From NCBI RefSeq assembly GCF_019711565.1, contig NZ_JAIGNN010000002.1, positions 806,001 to 870,000 of the forward strand: DNA of 64,000 nucleotides, written 5' to 3'. Each line of letters starts with the position of its first letter. The first letter of the stretch is position 1. The position numbers were made by a program, and so were the translations under genes. Origin of the DNA: Qipengyuania proteolytica (GTDB lineage Bacteria; Pseudomonadota; Alphaproteobacteria; Sphingomonadales; Sphingomonadaceae). Below the pieces are notes generated by a model, which was not told where the DNA came from, did not search any database, and worked only from the letters and a program-made list of their open reading frames with translations. Positions 1 through 15,478 of the stretch are shown in pieces.

Positions 1-644
1 GACACGACTGCGGCGCTCTGGCCGAACTCGTCGAAGGCCTTGCCGCCGTTTTCAAGCAGGGGGATCAGGTTGGTCGCATCGGAGGCGATGGCCTCCATGT
101 AGAACCGCATCTCGTCCGAACTGACGTTCGCCTTGACGAGGCTGTCGTAATACAGCTGCAGCGCGTCCTTGCCGCCCAGTCCTTTGAAGGCCTCGGCGGT
201 CACGCCCACCTTGGGGGCGATGTTTTCGAAGAAGTCGGCCATGCCGCCGCCGCCAGTGGCGCGGAAGTCGCCGACCTTGTCTTGCACGTCCTTGAAGATG
301 TCGCCGAGCTTGTCGGCCTCGATGCCGACCGTCTTCGCGCCGTAGGCGAGCCGCTGGAAATCTTCGAAGCCCTCGCCCGCGACCTGCGCAGCCACCTTCA
401 TCTCGCGGCTCGATTCGACCAGGTCCTTGGTCGTCTTGGCCAGCGCCACGCCGATCCCGGCGAGCGGGGCGGTGATCGCTGCCGACATCTTGATGCCGAT
501 CGACTGGATGCGCTTGCCGGTCTTCTCGAAGCTGCGGCGGGTCTGCTCGAACTGCTTGGCAGCCAGATCCGCGCCCTTCTCGAAGGCCGCTGTTTCCAGC
601 GAGAGATTGACCGCGAGGCGGGCGATCACGTCACCGAGTGCCAT
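1..644 (-). CDS. Phage tail tape measure protein, N-terminal part (cut by window edge)
   Basis: The minus-strand frame opens with ATG at 642-644 and stays open to the left edge, so only the first 214 or so residues are seen. It begins MALGDVIARLAVNLSLETAAFEKGA in type, followed by an alpha-helical, Ala/Lys/Glu-rich stretch typical of tape measure proteins, which set tail length and are threaded through the tail tube. Position supports the call: it directly follows the tail tube and tail-assembly-chaperone genes, as in lambdoid and HK97-like phages. The start overlaps the end of the upstream chaperone frame by 14 bases. The C-terminal part, where lytic or membrane segments usually lie, is outside the window. 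Confidence 0.85.
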   Translation of the reverse strand, partial: MALGDVIARLAVNLSLETAAFEKGADLAAKQFEQTRRSFEKTGKRIQSIGIKMSAAITAPLAGIGVALAKTTKDLVESSREMKVAAQVAGEGFEDFQRLAYGAKTVGIEADKLGDIFKDVQDKVGDFRATGGGGMADFFENIAPKVGVTAEAFKGLGGKDALQLYYDSLVKANVSSDEMRFYMEAIASDATNLIPLLENGGKAFDEFGQSAAVV

Positions 645-852
645 TCTGGTCTCCCTGCCTCTTGATCATGCGGTCGAACATGCGGCGCACGTCCAGCGCG
701 CCGCTTTCGGGCGTCTTCGGCTTTGCCGGTTTCAGATAGTCATCGAGCGACTTGAGCCGCTTCTCCCGGGCGAAGCGCTCGGCGCTCCACCCGATCATTG
801 TCGCCAGCTCGACGCTGGCCTTCATGCGCGCCCCGACGATCACCGCGAACAT
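631..852 (-). CDS. Second tail assembly chaperone frame (Phage_TAC_6-like), probably a -1 frameshift extension
   Basis: From its only available ATG this frame gives 73 residues. The frame is open without any ATG, GTG or TTG for a further 34 codons upstream, back to a GGGAAAC heptamer at 954-960. Those 34 codons encode the conserved-looking WEELWAQWCEAGLDPDDFW stretch with a following TPR, which resembles the core of small GTA/phage tail chaperones, so the ATG product would lack the start of the domain. I infer the main product is the C-terminal half of a frameshifted fusion with the upstream gene (about 212 residues), equivalent to lambda gpGT. Such chaperones hold the tape measure during tail-tube assembly. 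Independent translation from the internal ATG cannot be excluded. Confidence 0.75.
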   Translation of the reverse strand: MFAVIVGARMKASVELATMIGWSAERFAREKRLKSLDDYLKPAKPKTPESGALDVRRMFDRMIKRQGDQNGTR

Positions 853-884
853 GCGCGGCGTCGCCCGCCAGAAGTCGTCGGGAT

Positions 885-1268
885 CTAGCCCCGCTTCGCA
901 CCACTGCGCCCAGAGCTCTTCCCACGAGGGCGGGCGGCCTTGGGCGCTTTTGCGTTTCCCGGCTTGTCCTCCGGGAACGCGGCGGCGGAGGCCTGCTCCA
1001 GCGCCGCGCTAACCGCTTCGGGATCGGTCCGGATCATCTCCAGCACATCGGCGCGGGTGATCTCGGGATGGTGGCGCTGGAAGGCGGCCAGCGCGATGGC
1101 AGCGCTGGCCGACAGGAACCCTTCTCCCGCCATGGCCATGACTTTGGCCAGCGGCTTGCCTGTCGCCTCCTCGACCGTGAGCATCGCTTCCATGTCGAGG
1201 GCGAGGGTGAACTCGCGCCCGTCGCTTAGGACCAGCGCGACTTCACCCTTCAGCGGATTACGGGCCAT
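885..1268 (-). CDS. Tail assembly chaperone, GTA gp10-like
   Basis: This 127-residue protein resembles the gene-transfer-agent gp10 / tail tube associated chaperone family: a short beta N-terminus (GEVALVLSDGREFTLALD) followed by helices and a basic, disordered Ala/Lys/Arg C-terminus. It lies between the tail tube and tape measure genes, where phages of this type encode the tail chaperone G. Its ATG overlaps the stop of the tube gene (ATGA at 1266-1270), implying coupled translation. Codons 103-105 (Pro-Gly-Asn) contain the heptamer GGGAAAC in the phase needed for a -1 slip into the downstream chaperone frame. Terminating at the TAG at 885-887 would give the short form; slippage gives the long form. 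Confidence 0.85.
   Translation of the reverse strand: MARNPLKGEVALVLSDGREFTLALDMEAMLTVEEATGKPLAKVMAMAGEGFLSASAAIALAAFQRHHPEITRADVLEMIRTDPEAVSAALEQASAAAFPEDKPGNAKAPKAARPRGKSSGRSGAKRG
954..960 (-). other. Candidate programmed -1 ribosomal frameshift site GGGAAAC
   Basis: On the minus strand the bases read G GGA AAC in the zero frame of the upstream chaperone gene, the X XXY YYZ pattern of canonical -1 slippery sites. A tandem slip places the ribosome in the frame of the downstream chaperone, which is open to its stop at 631 and has no usable start codon before 852. The location, between tail tube and tape measure genes, is exactly where lambda and many long-tailed phages use such a shift. Confidence 0.75.
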
Positions 1269-1726
1269 CAGACAGGCGGCGTGTAGGCTGCGCCGGTCAC
1301 GGCACCGCTAACGGCCATGGTCACCGTGGCTTCCATCTTGCCGTCGGCGGTCACCTCGCCCTTGTCGTAGCCGGTGACGACCACCAGCGTGTCGTAGGTC
1401 CAGGCCAGCACGCCGGTCTCGGGGATGTTGAACCGCACGGCGCGCGCGTCGCCGCCCGACAGTGCATCCTCGATCGCCAGGTCGGTATCGGTGCCCGGGC
1501 GGAAGTTGAGCGTCACCTCGATCTCGCCACCGTCGATCATGCCGCTGGTATACTGACGGCGGCGGTTCGGCGACTTGAGATGCGTGGTCTCCACCCGCTC
1601 CGACGTGTCGCTCGGCAGCGAGAAGCTGACCACCTCCACCAGCTCGTAGAGGTTTGCGACCGTGTCGTCGCTGCTCAGCCAGACCTCGCCGGCATAGCCG
1701 GTCGAGGCTTCGGTATCTTCAGCCAT
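1268..1726 (-). CDS. Major tail tube protein
   Basis: A 152-residue, beta-rich protein that starts MAEDTEASTGYAGEV and contains the PSDTSERVETTHLKSP segment with NRRRQYTSGMIDGGEIEVTL, a pattern common to siphophage tail tube proteins (lambda gpV / TP901-1 MTP-like fold). These polymerise as hexamer rings to form the tail tube. Gene order (connector, gp10, terminator, tube, chaperones, tape measure) agrees. The stop overlaps the next gene's ATG by one base pair pattern ATGA, so translation is likely coupled. Confidence 0.85.
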   Translation of the reverse strand: MAEDTEASTGYAGEVWLSSDDTVANLYELVEVVSFSLPSDTSERVETTHLKSPNRRRQYTSGMIDGGEIEVTLNFRPGTDTDLAIEDALSGGDARAVRFNIPETGVLAWTYDTLVVVTGYDKGEVTADGKMEATVTMAVSGAVTGAAYTPPV

Positions 1727-9430: not shown

Positions 9431-9775
9431 TTACTGGGTCGCCGACCCTCCAGACTTTCGCCCTCCCCCCGCCGTCTCGGCCACCCGCTTCGCCCGAGCC
9501 TCCGCCGTCTTCGCATTGTGACACGCCTGGCAGAGCAGCTCGACGTTCGCCGGATCGAGGTCCGCACCCCCATCCCGCCGCTCGACCTTGTGGTCGCCGA
9601 TCAACCGATGGGTCGAGCCACACCGCTCGCACCATGCGCCGCGCTCGGCCTTGATCGCCTTCACCAGCGACCGCCACTCCGGCGAGGCATAGAACCGGTC
9701 CGCCACCTTCGGCAGCGCCCGCACCCGCGGCCCCAGCGTCGCCACCCGCGGCCCGAGCCCCTTCAGCCGCGCCAT
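9431..9775 (-). CDS. HNH endonuclease of the packaging module
   Basis: The 114-residue protein has the phage HNH arrangement: a zinc knuckle C49-x2-C52, the catalytic D61-H62, Asn 77, and a second knuckle C82-x2-C85 with H86-N87. HNH proteins beside the terminase genes (HK97 gp74 type) help terminase cut at cos sites during packaging. The start ATG at 9773-9775 was chosen over a long upstream open frame because the family begins shortly before the FYASPEWRSLVKAIK helix. Confidence 0.9.
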   Translation of the reverse strand: MARLKGLGPRVATLGPRVRALPKVADRFYASPEWRSLVKAIKAERGAWCERCGSTHRLIGDHKVERRDGGADLDPANVELLCQACHNAKTAEARAKRVAETAGGGRKSGGSATQ

Positions 9776-9806
9776 CGCAGATCGCCTCGCATCGTCATGT
9801 CGTGAG

Positions 9807-9958
9807 GACCAAGAGGCCCGGGTGCCGCCGCCTGGAAGCACACCGGGCCTGGTCGCATCCCCGGGAGGTACCCGCAGGGAGGGAGAGGAGCTTGGCCCGC
9901 CGGTGCTTCGGTGGGCGGGGGTAATCGCCCAGACACCAGCGCCAAGCCTATCCGCTGG
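9807..9958. other. Non-coding region with several nested hairpins upstream of the packaging genes
   Basis: No gene is supported from 9776 to 10101 (326 bases). Positions 9807-9824 and 9841-9854 form one stem (GACCA...GGCCCGGGTG against CACCGGGCC-TGGTC with bulges). GCTTGGC at 9890-9896 pairs with GCCAAGC at 9941-9947, enclosing CCCGCC/GGCGGG (9897-9902 with 9914-9919); CCAGC 9936-9940 can pair with GCTGG 9954-9958. Lying just upstream of HNH and terminase genes, this could be the cos/packaging site or a structured leader RNA; neither is proven. Confidence 0.45.
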
Positions 9959-9971
9959 ATACCCCCTCGCG

Positions 9972-10063
9972 TGCTGCACAATGAAGCGCGATATTTGCTG
10001 CACACTCGAAACTGTACATTGACAGCGCCGCGAGCCTCGCAATTCCGCGCCCCCTGCTGCACA
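9972..10063 (+). repeat. Three direct copies of TGCTGCACA
   Basis: TGCTGCACA occurs at 9972-9980, 9996-10004 and 10055-10063, all in the same orientation, between the leftward packaging operon and the rightward gene at 10102. Spacings are 24 and 59 bases. They look like binding sites for a regulator of one or both divergent transcription units, or terminase-binding repeats. A TTGACA hexamer at 10019-10024 could be the -35 box for the rightward gene, though its -10 partner is weak. Confidence 0.45.
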
Positions 10064-10101
10064 CTTCTCGCGATTTCGACACACCACAGGCCGCCGCTTC
10101 C

Positions 10102-11055
10102 ATGATCACCGACAGCATCACCACCTTCCGGCGACGGCTCTCCGCCTCGCTCGCCCCCGAAACCGGCGGCAAGCTGATCGAGGAGACGCCCGAGCTGGCC
10201 TCCGCGCGCAAGCAGCTGCTCTGGGTCTCCGCCGTCGTGTGGCTGCTGCTGCTGGCCCGCCCGGAGGATGGCCGCGCCGAGATCTCGCTCTTCACCAGCC
10301 TCGACCTGCCCTACCACCCGCTCCTGCTCGGCCTGCTAGGCTACCTTGGCTTTGCGGGATGGCAGTTCTACCACCAGCAATGGCGCTTTCGCCTTTCGGT
10401 CTCGAAGGTGAGCGAGGAGAACCCCGGCGCAGGCCATCTCGATCAAGCGATCTCCGATCTGGCCGAGAAGCACCCGAAGATTGTCGAGCAGATCGATCGC
10501 TACATGGGCATGCTCGATTCGGCGACGTCTATGTGCGAAACGAACGCGCGCCTTCGCCTCGTCGAAGAGCGGCTTCCCCCGATAATCGAACGCATAGAGC
10601 ACTGGCAGAAGCGCTACGATCCGACGACCAACGAGCGCAGCAACCCCGCCGGATCGATCCTCGACGAATTCTATGAGAACATCGCATCACTCCCCCACGT
10701 CTTGAATGTCCCGATTCCGGACGTGTCCGACCACGAAATCAGCACCACAAGACGCGCCATGCGGAAGCAGCAGGAGGCGATCCACGAAGACATCAGGGAG
10801 TTTGGCCTCCGCACCGACGACTTCTTCACGCTCAGCAACAACCTCAAGCGCCGCGATCGCGCGCATTACATGGCCTTGGGGACGCTCGTCCCCATCGCCT
10901 TCGCCGGGTTGGCATTCCTCTTCGCGGCCAACACCCTCATCGTCGCATGGACAGGCCCCGCCATGACCGCCCCAAAGCCGTTCTGCCCCGTGTGCCCGGT
11001 CGAGCACCCCGTCACGCCGCCAACACCCGAGCCCTGCGAGACGGCCACCCGTTGA
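10102..11055 (+). CDS. Prophage membrane protein of unknown function
   Basis: A 317-residue protein with three predicted membrane segments: two near the N-terminus (residues about 38-52 and 72-88) and one at about 262-285, separated by a long charged, helical middle domain. The tail is Pro/Cys-rich (PFCPVCPVEHP). I recognise no family. It is transcribed against the phage lytic genes and its last 44 bases overlap the convergent gene at 11012-11581. This isolated, oppositely oriented placement is typical of a cargo (moron) gene expressed from the lysogen. An alternative is a holin/spanin-like role, but no lysozyme gene is nearby. Confidence 0.7.
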   Translation: MITDSITTFRRRLSASLAPETGGKLIEETPELASARKQLLWVSAVVWLLLLARPEDGRAEISLFTSLDLPYHPLLLGLLGYLGFAGWQFYHQQWRFRLSVSKVSEENPGAGHLDQAISDLAEKHPKIVEQIDRYMGMLDSATSMCETNARLRLVEERLPPIIERIEHWQKRYDPTTNERSNPAGSILDEFYENIASLPHVLNVPIPDVSDHEISTTRRAMRKQQEAIHEDIREFGLRTDDFFTLSNNLKRRDRAHYMALGTLVPIAFAGLAFLFAANTLIVAWTGPAMTAPKPFCPVCPVEHPVTPPTPEPCETATR

Positions 11056-11581
11056 GCCCGCACACCACCGCGCCCAGCGCCATGCGATAGCGCAGCTTCA
11101 GCGCATTCGGCGTCCGCTCCCAGCGCACCCACGCCGCGATCGCCGTCCACGGCACACGGCCCTCGCCGCGAGCCAGCGCCTCGGTCGCCAGCCACACGGC
11201 CTTGCGCAGCTGCTCGTCCGCCACCAGCCCGACCCACGCCGTCACCCGGTCTCGCTCGTCCACCTCTGCGGACGACAGCGGCGTGCGCGGCTCGCGGCTC
11301 TCGACCTTGCGCACGGGCAGCTGCTTGCCGCTGTCGGTCTCGATCAGCGTTTCGGACCAGTCGCCCTTGATATCGCCCACCTCGCCCTGGGCGAGATGCC
11401 ACGGCCCGTCGCCGGCGAACGGCCACTTGCCCCCACCGGGCGAGCGACGCCACAGCGCATGCACCCGCACCATCGCCTCTTCCATGTCCTCGATGGTGGA
11501 AGGGACCTTGGAACCGCCCGTGGAAGTGTTTCGAGAACCCGCCAAACCCACTCTTTTTTCAAACTTTTCAATATATTCCAT
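11012..11581 (-). CDS. Phage protein, possibly DUF6362-like
   Basis: The 189-residue product has an N-terminal stretch MEEAMVRVHALWRRSPGGGK with the following WPF and a C-terminal helical part DERDRVTAWVGLVADEQLRK...LRYRMALGAVVCGLNGW. The layout resembles small alphaproteobacterial prophage proteins (DUF6362-type) with a helix-turn-helix-like C-terminus, but the match is from memory and weak. It could regulate late genes, as it lies upstream of the packaging operon. The start lies at the edge of the GGAAG repeat region. Confidence 0.6.
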   Translation of the reverse strand: MEYIEKFEKRVGLAGSRNTSTGGSKVPSTIEDMEEAMVRVHALWRRSPGGGKWPFAGDGPWHLAQGEVGDIKGDWSETLIETDSGKQLPVRKVESREPRTPLSSAEVDERDRVTAWVGLVADEQLRKAVWLATEALARGEGRVPWTAIAAWVRWERTPNALKLRYRMALGAVVCGLNGWPSRRARVLAA

Positions 11582-11790
11582 TCCATTCTTCCCCTTCGAA
11601 AGAGAGAGGTTGGAAGTGAAGGAAGCGAAATTGGGGTAAAGGGCGCCGCAAACCGCAATGCACTTTCTCGTGCGGAGTTACCCGAATTTCGCTTCCACGA
11701 CTTCCAAACGAAGGCAAGCACCTGAAAAGACGCAATTCTTTACTTCCATGTCCCACTTCCACGCCATCGACCCCCCGTGGAAGGCGGAAG
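11496..11790. repeat. GGAAG repeat cluster with a 29-bp inverted repeat
   Basis: Short GTGGAAG/TTGGAAG-type units recur in both orientations: plus-strand copies at 11496, 11508, 11520, 11610 and 11777, and reverse copies (CTTCCA) near 11692, 11700, 11743 and 11755. Within the cluster, 11610-11638 is an imperfect inverted copy of 11679-11707 (25 of 29 positions match), with 40 bases between the arms. The region separates the divergent genes starting at 11581 and 11748. It resembles an iteron-type replication origin or a multi-site operator. Confidence 0.6.
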
Positions 11791-12417: not shown

Positions 12418-14295
12418 TCAGTCACCCGGCACCCAATCGCCCTTCCCTGTCGGGAAGCCCTCGTCCGCGGAACTCCACCCCGGATCACCCACAGGCGGCT
12501 CCGGCGGCCCGTCCCAGCGCCCCTCGCGGATCGCCTCGGCGTCCACCCCGTTGCGCAGCGCGATGCCGATCCACCACACGCCGTTGCTGGTCTTCTGCTC
12601 GAAGCCCTTGTCCAGCATCGCCGCCTTGAAGCCCTTGTTGGTCCAGCTCGCCGCGCCCGCCTCGTCGGCCCAGGCGGTATAGGTGTCGAACAGCGCCTTC
12701 GCCTTCACCCGGCACGCGCCGGCGGGCTCGTCCGGCCCGACCACGCAGGTGGCGGACAGGAACCGCCCGAGATCGTCCGACTGGTCGCGATAGGCCGCCG
12801 TGGCCCGCGTCACCGCGTCCGGCTCGATCAGCCCCGCCGCGCGCCAGTCGCACAGGCCTTCGAGCAACCGGTTCAGTATCCCGCTCGCCTCCCCGCGCAG
12901 GGTTTCCGGCAGGCTGCGATCCACCTCGGAAGCGTCGATCGTCACCGCCCAGGGCACCAGCTGCATGCGCCGCCAGATGCCGTCGCTCGTGTCCTTCACC
13001 TGCGGCTTGTGGTTGCCGCTGATGGTCATCTTGAAATCGGGCAGGAAGGTGAAGAAGCCCTTGTTCAGGTGCCGCGCGTCCACCGGGTCGCCGCCGGTCA
13101 CCATCTTGATCAGGCCTTCGTTCAGCCGCGCGTTCTTCTCCGGCTCGGACACCCGCAGGAACCGCACCCCGGGCAGGCGGGCGAGGTCGGGCGTCGCCTG
13201 GTCGCCGCGCCGCTTGATTCCGCTGTCGAGGAAGCTCTCGATCGGGATCGACCCGGCGTAATCGCCAGCCAGGTGCGCCACCGCCTCCACCCATGTGCCC
13301 TTGCCGTTGCGGCCGGAGCCATAGAAGAACGCCAGCTTCTGCTCGCCGATATCGCCCGTCAGGCTGAGGCCGCCCCACTGATGGATGAATCGCCGCATGG
13401 CGGCATCGGGCTGCACGCGGTCGATAAAGGCGTCATAGGTCGGGCAGGCGGCGGCCGGCGAATACTTCACCGGCGCCAGCTTGGTGATCAGGTCGGCGCG
13501 GTCGTGCGCGAAGCGCTTGACCTTCCAGCCATCCACCTTCCACTCGGATTTCCCCTCGGCGACCTCGTCGGACGAGCGGCGCACCTTGTTCCGCACGAGC
13601 CGCAGCGTGCCATTCAAGACGTTTATCGCCATCCGGTCCTGGTCGAGCTGCTCGGGCCGGATCGCGATATCGGGGAAGCTCTTGGCCAGCTTGGCGACCG
13701 AGGACAGCTTGCCGCTCGTCTCGCTCGCCTTGGCATGTGCGGCGATCGTGTCGCTCCACAGCTTGCGGCTCGATGTTGCCGTGCTGAAGGCGAAATCGCG
13801 CACCTCGCACAGTCCCAGCCACTCGGCGCGCTCGCCGTCGTCGTCGCCCTTAAGATAGGTGTCGAGCCCCTCGTCGCGCTTCACCGCCGCCCATTCGAGG
13901 AAGTTCTCGAGCCGCTGGCCATTGAGGTCGATCGGCGTCTCGCAGCCGAGGCTGGCGATCAGCGCCGATTCATTGCGGATCGCGCGGATCGTGTGGAACA
14001 CGCTCTGCATCACCTCGGCGGGCAGCGCGTCCTTTTCCTCGGACAGCAGCCGCCAGCGCCGCCCGTCCCACATGAACCAGCCCATGACGTCGCAGAAGCG
14101 GAAATCGGCCCCGTGCCGCACCCGCCACCGCTCGGCATTGCCCAGGTCGGTCAACGGCAGCCGCGCACAGGCAAGGTCGGTCTCGGGATCCGGCACCGCA
14201 CTGATCTTACGCGCCGGCTTAGTCCCCTCCCCGCCCGAGGGCGCAGGATCCTGCGGCGGCGGAGCGCCGCACGAAAGGCGATTGCGGGTGGTCAT
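12418..14295 (-). CDS. P4-type primase/SF3 helicase, phage replication
   Basis: A 625-residue protein of the D5/P4-alpha type. A D5-N region precedes the superfamily 3 helicase core with Walker A GSGRNGKGT at about residues 326-334, followed by SEPEKNARLNEGLIKMVTGG (Walker B/B' region) and the TISGNHKPQVKDTSDGIWRR sensor region. The C-terminus ends with a winged-helix-like domain. It would prime and unwind at the phage origin. The start ATG at 14293-14295 lacks a clear ribosome binding site; a 19-bp palindrome (14308-14326) lies 12 bases upstream and may regulate it. Confidence 0.9.
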   Translation of the reverse strand: MTTRNRLSCGAPPPQDPAPSGGEGTKPARKISAVPDPETDLACARLPLTDLGNAERWRVRHGADFRFCDVMGWFMWDGRRWRLLSEEKDALPAEVMQSVFHTIRAIRNESALIASLGCETPIDLNGQRLENFLEWAAVKRDEGLDTYLKGDDDGERAEWLGLCEVRDFAFSTATSSRKLWSDTIAAHAKASETSGKLSSVAKLAKSFPDIAIRPEQLDQDRMAINVLNGTLRLVRNKVRRSSDEVAEGKSEWKVDGWKVKRFAHDRADLITKLAPVKYSPAAACPTYDAFIDRVQPDAAMRRFIHQWGGLSLTGDIGEQKLAFFYGSGRNGKGTWVEAVAHLAGDYAGSIPIESFLDSGIKRRGDQATPDLARLPGVRFLRVSEPEKNARLNEGLIKMVTGGDPVDARHLNKGFFTFLPDFKMTISGNHKPQVKDTSDGIWRRMQLVPWAVTIDASEVDRSLPETLRGEASGILNRLLEGLCDWRAAGLIEPDAVTRATAAYRDQSDDLGRFLSATCVVGPDEPAGACRVKAKALFDTYTAWADEAGAASWTNKGFKAAMLDKGFEQKTSNGVWWIGIALRNGVDAEAIREGRWDGPPEPPVGDPGWSSADEGFPTGKGDWVPGD

Positions 14296-14307
14296 GAAAA
14301 ATGTTGC

Positions 14308-14326
14308 CCGAAAGTATTACTTTCGG
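14308..14326. promoter_or_regulatory. Perfect 19-bp palindrome between divergent genes
   Basis: CCGAAAGTA (14308-14316) and TACTTTCGG (14318-14326) are perfect inverted 9-mers around a single central T. The element lies between the leftward primase gene start (14295) and the rightward membrane-protein gene start (14340), so it is well placed to be an operator controlling both. No T-run follows, which argues against a terminator. Confidence 0.6.
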
Positions 14327-14339
14327 CCATGCAACTGGC

Positions 14340-14858
14340 ATGAACAAGATTGGCGAGACCTATTGGACCGACTGGCTTTTCGGTGTGACGATGCCGACCA
14401 GTGGATGGCTCGGGATACTTGGCTCTTTCGCTGGTGTTCTGGTCGCTTTCTCTCTCGGAGTTTGGTGGGCTCGTCGCCAAGAGAGAGGCAAGGATTTGCG
14501 AGCGCTTCGGTTTCTTGACGAGAATTTGCGCAATTGCCTCGAAAGGTTCGCGCCTTTCGAGGTTGAGTTTAGACCAGTCGCTGAACAGGACGATATCGAG
14601 CGAGCATTTGGCGCCCTGCACCAAACTGCCGCATGTGTGCGGTGGGCTGTGGCCCATCCAGAGCGCTTCGAACCCGCACTCTTCTTGCGCCTTTTGATGG
14701 TGGAGCAACGCTGCGTCGGAGCCACTAGGCTCGGACCGAGCGACTTCACGATTGCGCGCGATGGTGAAATCGAGGTCGATCGTCTGGAGGCATCTACTTA
14801 TCTCTGGAGAGAGATTCACGGCGTCGCGAGCGACATTCGGTACGTGCTGAGCGATTAA
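14340..14858 (+). CDS. Unknown prophage protein with one N-terminal membrane segment
   Basis: From ATG 14340-14342 the product is 172 residues: a membrane helix at about residues 18-41 (SGWLGILGSFAGVLVAFSLG) and a cytosolic domain rich in helices, with no recognised family. An earlier in-frame ATG at 14301 exists but lies within the palindrome. The gene interrupts the leftward replication operon, has lower GC than its neighbours, and ends two bases from the convergent stop at 14861. These features suggest an inserted cargo gene expressed on its own. Confidence 0.65.
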   Translation: MNKIGETYWTDWLFGVTMPTSGWLGILGSFAGVLVAFSLGVWWARRQERGKDLRALRFLDENLRNCLERFAPFEVEFRPVAEQDDIERAFGALHQTAACVRWAVAHPERFEPALFLRLLMVEQRCVGATRLGPSDFTIARDGEIEVDRLEASTYLWREIHGVASDIRYVLSD

Positions 14859-14860
14859 AG

Positions 14861-15478
14861 TCACGCCGCCCGCCTGACAGGCACCACCGGCCCCGTTTCC
14901 TTGACCCGCGGCAGATTGCCGATGCTCAGCAGCTTGCGCAGCCGCTCGCCCGCGCCGCGATCGCAGCGCAGCAGCACATGCTCGCCAAGGCCGCGCAGGC
15001 AGCGCAGCCCCTCGTCCCAATCGAGGATTACGATCCCGACGCCGCCCGCCCGCAGCCACGCCAGCGGCGTCGCGAACAGGCGCAGCTCGTGCGCGCGGCC
15101 GGTCTCGCAGGCCAGCCAGGCGTCGTAGCCCAGGCACCATCCCTGTCCCCAGCGCAGCGCCCACTGGTCCGGATCGTGCGTCGCCAGCGCGACGAGGTCC
15201 ACCAGCACGCCCTGCTCGCGCACCCCCAACAGCAACCGCGGATCAGGCCCCTCGGGCTCGAACCGCGCGCCATCGGCAGACAGCGCCACGCGCCCCGCCC
15301 CGATATCCCCCGCGCCGCACAGCTGCCCCAGCAGCCCCGCCGGAACGCCGAGCTCGAGAACCCGCGCCAGCGCCGCCGGCGAAAGCCGCGCCGCCTCCAG
15401 CTCCGCGCGCAGCGAGCATGCGACGAACCAGTCGTCCCGATCCCCCGCCATCGCGGCCTCGAGATAGGCCAGATTCAT
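14861..15478 (-). CDS. Phage protein of unknown function, replication operon
   Basis: A 205-residue protein starting MNLAYLEAAMAGDRDDWFVA. It is rich in Leu, Ala and Arg and contains GVGIVILDWDEGLRCLRGLG, which could be a strand-turn-helix unit, but I recognise no domain. Its ATG overlaps the stop of the upstream gene (ATGA at 15475-15478), so it is translated with the replication operon that begins near 19915. Function unknown. Confidence 0.7.
   Translation of the reverse strand: MNLAYLEAAMAGDRDDWFVACSLRAELEAARLSPAALARVLELGVPAGLLGQLCGAGDIGAGRVALSADGARFEPEGPDPRLLLGVREQGVLVDLVALATHDPDQWALRWGQGWCLGYDAWLACETGRAHELRLFATPLAWLRAGGVGIVILDWDEGLRCLRGLGEHVLLRCDRGAGERLRKLLSIGNLPRVKETGPVVPVRRAA

Follow-up and report, generated by a model that had tools for sequence, protein, structure and literature searches.

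How is a tail assembly chaperone domain made when the frame that encodes it has no start codon in front of it? This question is posed by a locus on the minus strand of the window, the whole 64,000-nucleotide stretch of Qipengyuania proteolytica DNA analysed here. A 127-residue upstream (G-like) tail assembly chaperone is encoded there in the zero frame at 885..1268, with its stop codon, TAG, at 887-885. It follows the gene for the major tail tube protein (1268..1726, minus strand; PF16461 Phage_TTP_12, 57.2 bits against a cut-off of 26.1; phrog_158 major tail protein) and precedes that for the tape measure protein, which has its ATG at 644 and occupies 1..644 of the minus strand (phrog_2854 tape measure, E 4e-68 for the in-window part). 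The tape measure ORF overlaps the end of the -1 frame and runs past the window edge to a total of 688 aa. The Pfam and PHROG matches bear out an earlier reading of the letters alone, which had placed the chaperone pair between tail tube and tape measure genes. Judged by their translations rather than by a family search, the genes beyond the window look like more tail, fibre-like and lysozyme-like ones, and together with head genes they make the surrounding region look like a siphovirus prophage.

On the minus strand, positions 962-954, taken in the phase of the 127-aa ORF (885-1268), read CCG GGA AAC, so that 960-954 is read as the slippery heptamer G GGA AAC (954..960). The -1 frame is open from stop to stop, 1008 to 631. 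Its earliest ATG, GTG or TTG is the ATG at 852 (850..852, minus strand), and up to the conserved Trp it contains no ATG, GTG, TTG, CTG, ATT, ATC or ATA. The segment of this frame from the heptamer on (631..960, minus strand) carries a TAC_6 domain with no start of its own ahead of the domain. The sequence-only reading had claimed the phase of the heptamer, the frame open to 631 and the lack of starts before 852, and all three held when we read the strand. By coordinate arithmetic, 105 zero-frame codons followed by 107 -1-frame codons from the slip would yield a putative 212-residue (GT-like) frameshift product spanning 631..1268, as pieced together from its parts.

We consider it very probable that ribosomes at this locus, which lies in a siphovirus-like prophage, undergo a programmed -1 frameshift of the lambda G/GT type. 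Most ribosomes would terminate at 885 to give the TAC_11-like chaperone, and some would slip back one base at G_GGA_AAC to give the 212-residue fusion with the TAC_6 domain. The slippage itself, its rate and the roles of both proteins are what we infer; the frames, the heptamer, the startless second frame and their conservation lend support to the proposal, made in the sequence-only reading, that a programmed -1 frameshift joins two tail chaperone frames.

Against PF11836 (Phage_TAC_11/GTA-gp10), the upstream chaperone scored 17.5 bits, under the curated cut-off of 27.8, and is here called TAC_11-like only. It matched the phrog_2115 tail protein (E 9e-9), and its predicted fold had weak-to-moderate matches among predicted viral proteins, several of them named tail assembly chaperone (best E 0.008); comparison with the PDB by fold and by sequence profile gave no match worth naming. 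The -1 segment belongs to PF09550 (Phage_TAC_6; 25.5 bits, over the curated cut-off of 23.4); it had no match among plasmid records, and a nucleotide search of phage records likewise gave no match. When 42 sequences were aligned, the 36 residues preceding the window’s first Met contained every one of the four invariant columns and five of the seven nearly invariant ones, and some of these columns lie past the zero-frame stop, where the -1 frame alone is coding. AlphaFold2 run on the -1 segment predicted helices at residues 13-22 and 27-32, in a block with pLDDT of about 95, ahead of the first possible Met at residue 37. The codons before ATG 852 had been described as domain-like from their residues, a description that the invariant columns and predicted helices uphold, and the segment that a start at 852 would skip looks to be translated.

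These observations bear on the possibility that the two frames are separate genes, the TAC_6 protein being made from its own standard or near-cognate start or by reinitiation at ATG 852. Both predicted helices and the four invariant residues would be missing from a protein begun at ATG 852, which argues against this reading, and we regard it as improbable. Start codons among relatives speak to it more broadly. We assembled loci from IMG/VR (the best 80 of 104 relatives), species genomes (8), phage records (5) and near relatives (7), so that 101 loci entered with the window included. In two (L157 and L188) the chosen frame gave no match to the domain, leaving 99; L148 and L179 were dropped because the upstream gene was not recognised, five of the seven unassigned loci being kept by inspection, and the remaining 97 formed 63 clusters at 75% identity, one of them the window’s. 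Among the 99 domain-bearing loci, a recognised upstream homologue lay at -1 in 92, and no locus had one at +1; for the seven others no upstream frame was assigned, with L148 leaning towards +1 (E 0.005).

Of the 63 non-redundant loci, 61 were free of ATG, GTG and TTG over the 90 bases leading up to the first conserved Trp, 56 over the whole open frame up to that Trp, and 53 up to the FW motif. None of seven possible start codons occurred within those 90 bases in 46 of the 63, and 52 of 53 heptamer-bearing loci had no start between heptamer and Trp. Both the 61 and the 46 weigh against separate genes. Over the full open frame ahead of the Trp, seven of the 63 loci have a start, which in five lies over 90 bases upstream. 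In the overlapped part, starts made up 2 of 1904 codons, versus 84 of 6859 when the -1 frame was read through the remainder of the gene (Fisher p 5e-7), and from the zero-frame stop to the FW motif they made up 10 of 595, versus 321 of 5131 after the motif (p 4e-7). The scarcity is partly a property of the -1 frame, since its own background predicts that 47.9 of 63 loci would be startless over the 90 bases up to and including the Trp, compared with the 61 observed.

The heptamer was likewise conserved. An in-frame X_XXY_YYZ heptamer was present in the overlap of 53 of the 63 loci. The expectation under synonymous shuffling, with the first protein unchanged and the -1 frame kept open, was 18.9, and in 200,000 draws the count never came to 53. 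Heptamers numbered 69 per 1311 overlap codons versus 12 per 5357 codons elsewhere in the same genes. The commonest were AAACCCT (24 occurrences), GGGAAAC (17) and GGGAAAG (7), with GGGAAAC also found in the window’s nearest relatives, such as L105, L107, L108 and L110. Comparison of sequences confirmed that the heptamer and open -1 frame of the window exceed chance. The expectation that homologues would share a slippery heptamer and a startless second frame was therefore largely borne out, with 53 of 63 carrying a heptamer and 10 lacking a canonical one, and with a start within 90 bases of the Trp in two of 63 and anywhere before it in seven.

Several loci depart from the common form. Five of them (L012, L013, L014, L022 and L023) have neither a start at or before the Trp nor a canonical heptamer, and have C CCT C near the site; where others have A AAC CCT, this could be a one-tRNA slip on a single proline codon. 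Four more (L163, L172, L177 and L183) have neither start at or before the Trp nor canonical heptamer. Homopolymeric CCCCCCG or CCCCCCA occupies the expected place in L168, L170 and L191, the last from Brevundimonas intermedia.

This conservation also bears on two other explanations. The -1 frame might be a decayed or mis-sequenced remnant whose fusion is never made, and the prophage copy in the window is indeed the single copy in the genome; however, the -1 relation and the open frame recur in 63 of 63 clusters and the heptamer in 53, and the domain is conserved over the 42 aligned sequences. Conservation contradicts a remnant, and we give that reading next to no credence. Transcriptional slippage, rather than ribosomal frameshifting, would join the frames into the same fusion, and longer runs do occur at a few loci (AAAAAAG, CCCCCCG). 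Against it, the heptamers G GGA AAC and A AAC CCT contain no run longer than three, and heptamers are enriched in the zero-frame phase, the sole phase counted; we judge transcriptional slippage very unlikely.

In dnaX-like frameshifting, slippage is stimulated by a Shine-Dalgarno element upstream of the heptamer. The window has a Shine-Dalgarno-like GGAGG at 968..972 on the minus strand, 7 nt 5' of the heptamer, as a possible stimulator; its anti-SD duplex is predicted at -9.5 kcal/mol, which taken alone is not significant (fraction of shuffles as low, 0.275). For a set of five common heptamers, found at 49 loci, anti-SD pairing ahead of the site was stronger than in synonymous shuffles (-6.60 versus -5.60 kcal/mol, p 0.002), and its energy was -7 or lower in 24. 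The encoded residues account for much of this signal, as the shuffles already stand at -5.60 compared with about -3.2 elsewhere in the genes. An upstream Shine-Dalgarno-like element as stimulator is suggestive. A stretch of this kind upstream of many heptamers would also suit separate genes. No conserved downstream RNA stem was found in eight sequences (z -1.19 to +0.91), and among 11 consensus pairs two were changed on both sides, with a covariation term of -0.14, in an alignment whose row L106 starts six bases late. A GCGCCC/GGGCGC hairpin in the window was set aside, its stability being not above that of shuffles and its covariation with relatives not useful.

Joining of two frames in this way is the known mechanism of tail assembly chaperones. 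In lambda, the chaperone genes lie between the tail tube and tape measure genes, and the slip site is GGGAAAG. A conserved -1 frameshift of tail assembly genes was reportedly described by Xu, Hendrix and Duda in 2004. The window pair resembles lambda G/GT in its overlapping frames, its -1 shift and its position between those genes, whereas its protein families are other ones (TAC_11-like and TAC_6) and its heptamer is GGGAAAC, not GGGAAAG. By analogy with lambda, binding of the tape measure protein would fall to the short form and recruitment of tail tube subunits to the TAC_6 extension.

Passages of PMC5009743 describe low-level -1 frameshifting in lambda where the frames overlap near the end of the first chaperone gene, with a fusion that links tape measure and tail tube; they also give G_GGA_AAC as the g-t shift site of the haloarchaeal virus HCTV-1 and describe G_GGA_AAG as highly shift-prone in E. 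coli. For HK97-like tail assembly chaperone genes, which going by an excerpt of PMC3711429 have gene kind and mechanism in common with the window pair, two tested by reporter showed 6% and 7% frameshifting. An excerpt on Rhodobacter capsulatus phages (PMC8601537) presents frameshifting as usual in tail assembly chaperone genes, in most of the phages studied. For the g10/g10.1 (TAC_11/TAC_6) pair, we found no report of a frameshift in the titles, abstracts and searched passages of open-access papers. Of the five phage records among our loci, four annotate two separate CDS and one carries no annotation. Two CDS in four annotated records could be taken in favour of separate genes; they also mean that such fusions may be widely missed.

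The pair is also found in gene transfer agents (GTAs). Part of PMC11409702 identifies g10 and g10.5 of RcGTA as tail chaperones 1 and 2, with g10 in family pfam11836, and the RcGTA genes resemble the window pair in g10 domain family and in gene order. The word ‘frameshift’ is absent from the main text of PMC11409702 and from the main texts on the RcGTA structure (PMC7296036), the Caulobacter GTA (PMC9632790) and the GTA classifier (PMC6821227); for a GTA-like Wolbachia element, a passage of PMC10299305 proposes a +1 frameshift in a hydrolase gene. The host genome itself holds an RcGTA-like cluster (TAC_11 at 74.6 bits, DUF2460, BR0599 and Rcc01698_C). GTA_TIM was searched for in the host genome and not found, so the cluster was identified by the other GTA genes. 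There (L051), the ATG of the second chaperone gene overlaps the stop of the first, as ATGA. Split GTA g10/g10.1 pairs have the second start at the stop of the first gene, a feature that the window pair lacks. That GTA-type relatives have separate genes with ATGA-type overlaps is a point for separate genes in the window. In the host’s GTA-like cluster we also observed, at locus L223 (G000:C1:231000-250000; 9444-11750 and 12971-15142), a DUF2460 gene fused to a non-contractile tail sheath TIM barrel. The Rcc01698-like protein of L223 is without GTA_TIM, which is present in that of L222, L224 and L225.

In the host’s order, 237 of 396 genomes had a TAC_6 match. The surveyed loci were picked by profile score, do not sample GTAs and prophages at random, and were for the most part not checked as either; read so, the 30 top-scoring loci of the order comprised 22 split pairs, three of another kind, one without start or slip and four with the upstream gene unrecognised, with none frameshift-like. 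Two of the 30 (L084 and L102) have a heptamer beside a GTG start. A class-wide survey of 45 loci gave 15 split, 15 frameshift-like, six other, three neither and six unrecognised. A tree of 156 concatenated domain alignments requires at least five changes between frameshift and split states; we claim no direction for them because the tree was a quick one with many weak branches. When loci were labelled automatically, 11 without a recognised upstream gene were passed over, and the label given to L215 (no slip) conflicts with the CCCTTTC seen there. The sequence-only reading had held that a fused form would be noteworthy given the separate genes of GTA-type systems. GTA-type pairs are indeed often split, but the fused form is the usual one among window-type loci, and GTA-type pairs appear not always to be split.

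This last point comes from a second candidate slip site. CCCTTT(C/T/G) occurs in the g10 frame, nine bases before the domain Trp, at 16 of 74 loci (8 of the 45 class loci and 8 of 29 additional loci), and in 12 of the 16 there is a tandem CCCTTTCCCT, with both frames reading Pro-Phe-Pro. When loci were selected blind to the site, 21 of the 74 had a frame in -1 relation whose end lies 10-40 bases past the Trp. In L061, one of these 21, g10 is in another frame; the other 20 comprise the 16 CCCTTT loci, three with another heptamer (L043, L072 and L073) and one with none (L039). None of the 16 shows a start in the 60 bases leading up to the Trp; in L028, one of these, a GTG stands 120 bases ahead of it. 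At 13 of the 16 a start codon follows the Trp by 9-12 bases, at the g10 stop, and reinitiation there could give a shorter protein; L034, L216 and L217 have no start up to 21 bases after the Trp. The FPW motif, which the -1 frame would supply at CCCTTT loci, is kept near the g10.1 start in split relatives. GTA_TIM and Rcc01698_C confirmed GTA clusters at two of the 16, L222 and L224, as well as at L225, a split relative of the same family. At L041, L044, L052, L215 and L218 the codon at the g10 stop is a TTG, inside the TAC_6 domain and beside CCCTTTCCCT, where reinitiation is possible.

We lean slightly towards the view that some GTAs keep a programmed -1 g10/g10.1 frameshift at CCCTTT(C/T/G), a site unlike that of the prophage. 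Others, even within one bacterial family, are split by an ATG or GTG at the g10 stop, and on this view the change from frameshift to coupled genes would be a recurring step in phage domestication. With the frameshift proposed for the window, chaperone frameshifting of the lambda type would reach the TAC_11/TAC_6 pair in prophages of alphaproteobacteria. With a prophage and a GTA cluster side by side, the host may provide a natural comparison of chaperone ratio and tail length when a frameshift yields to coupled genes.
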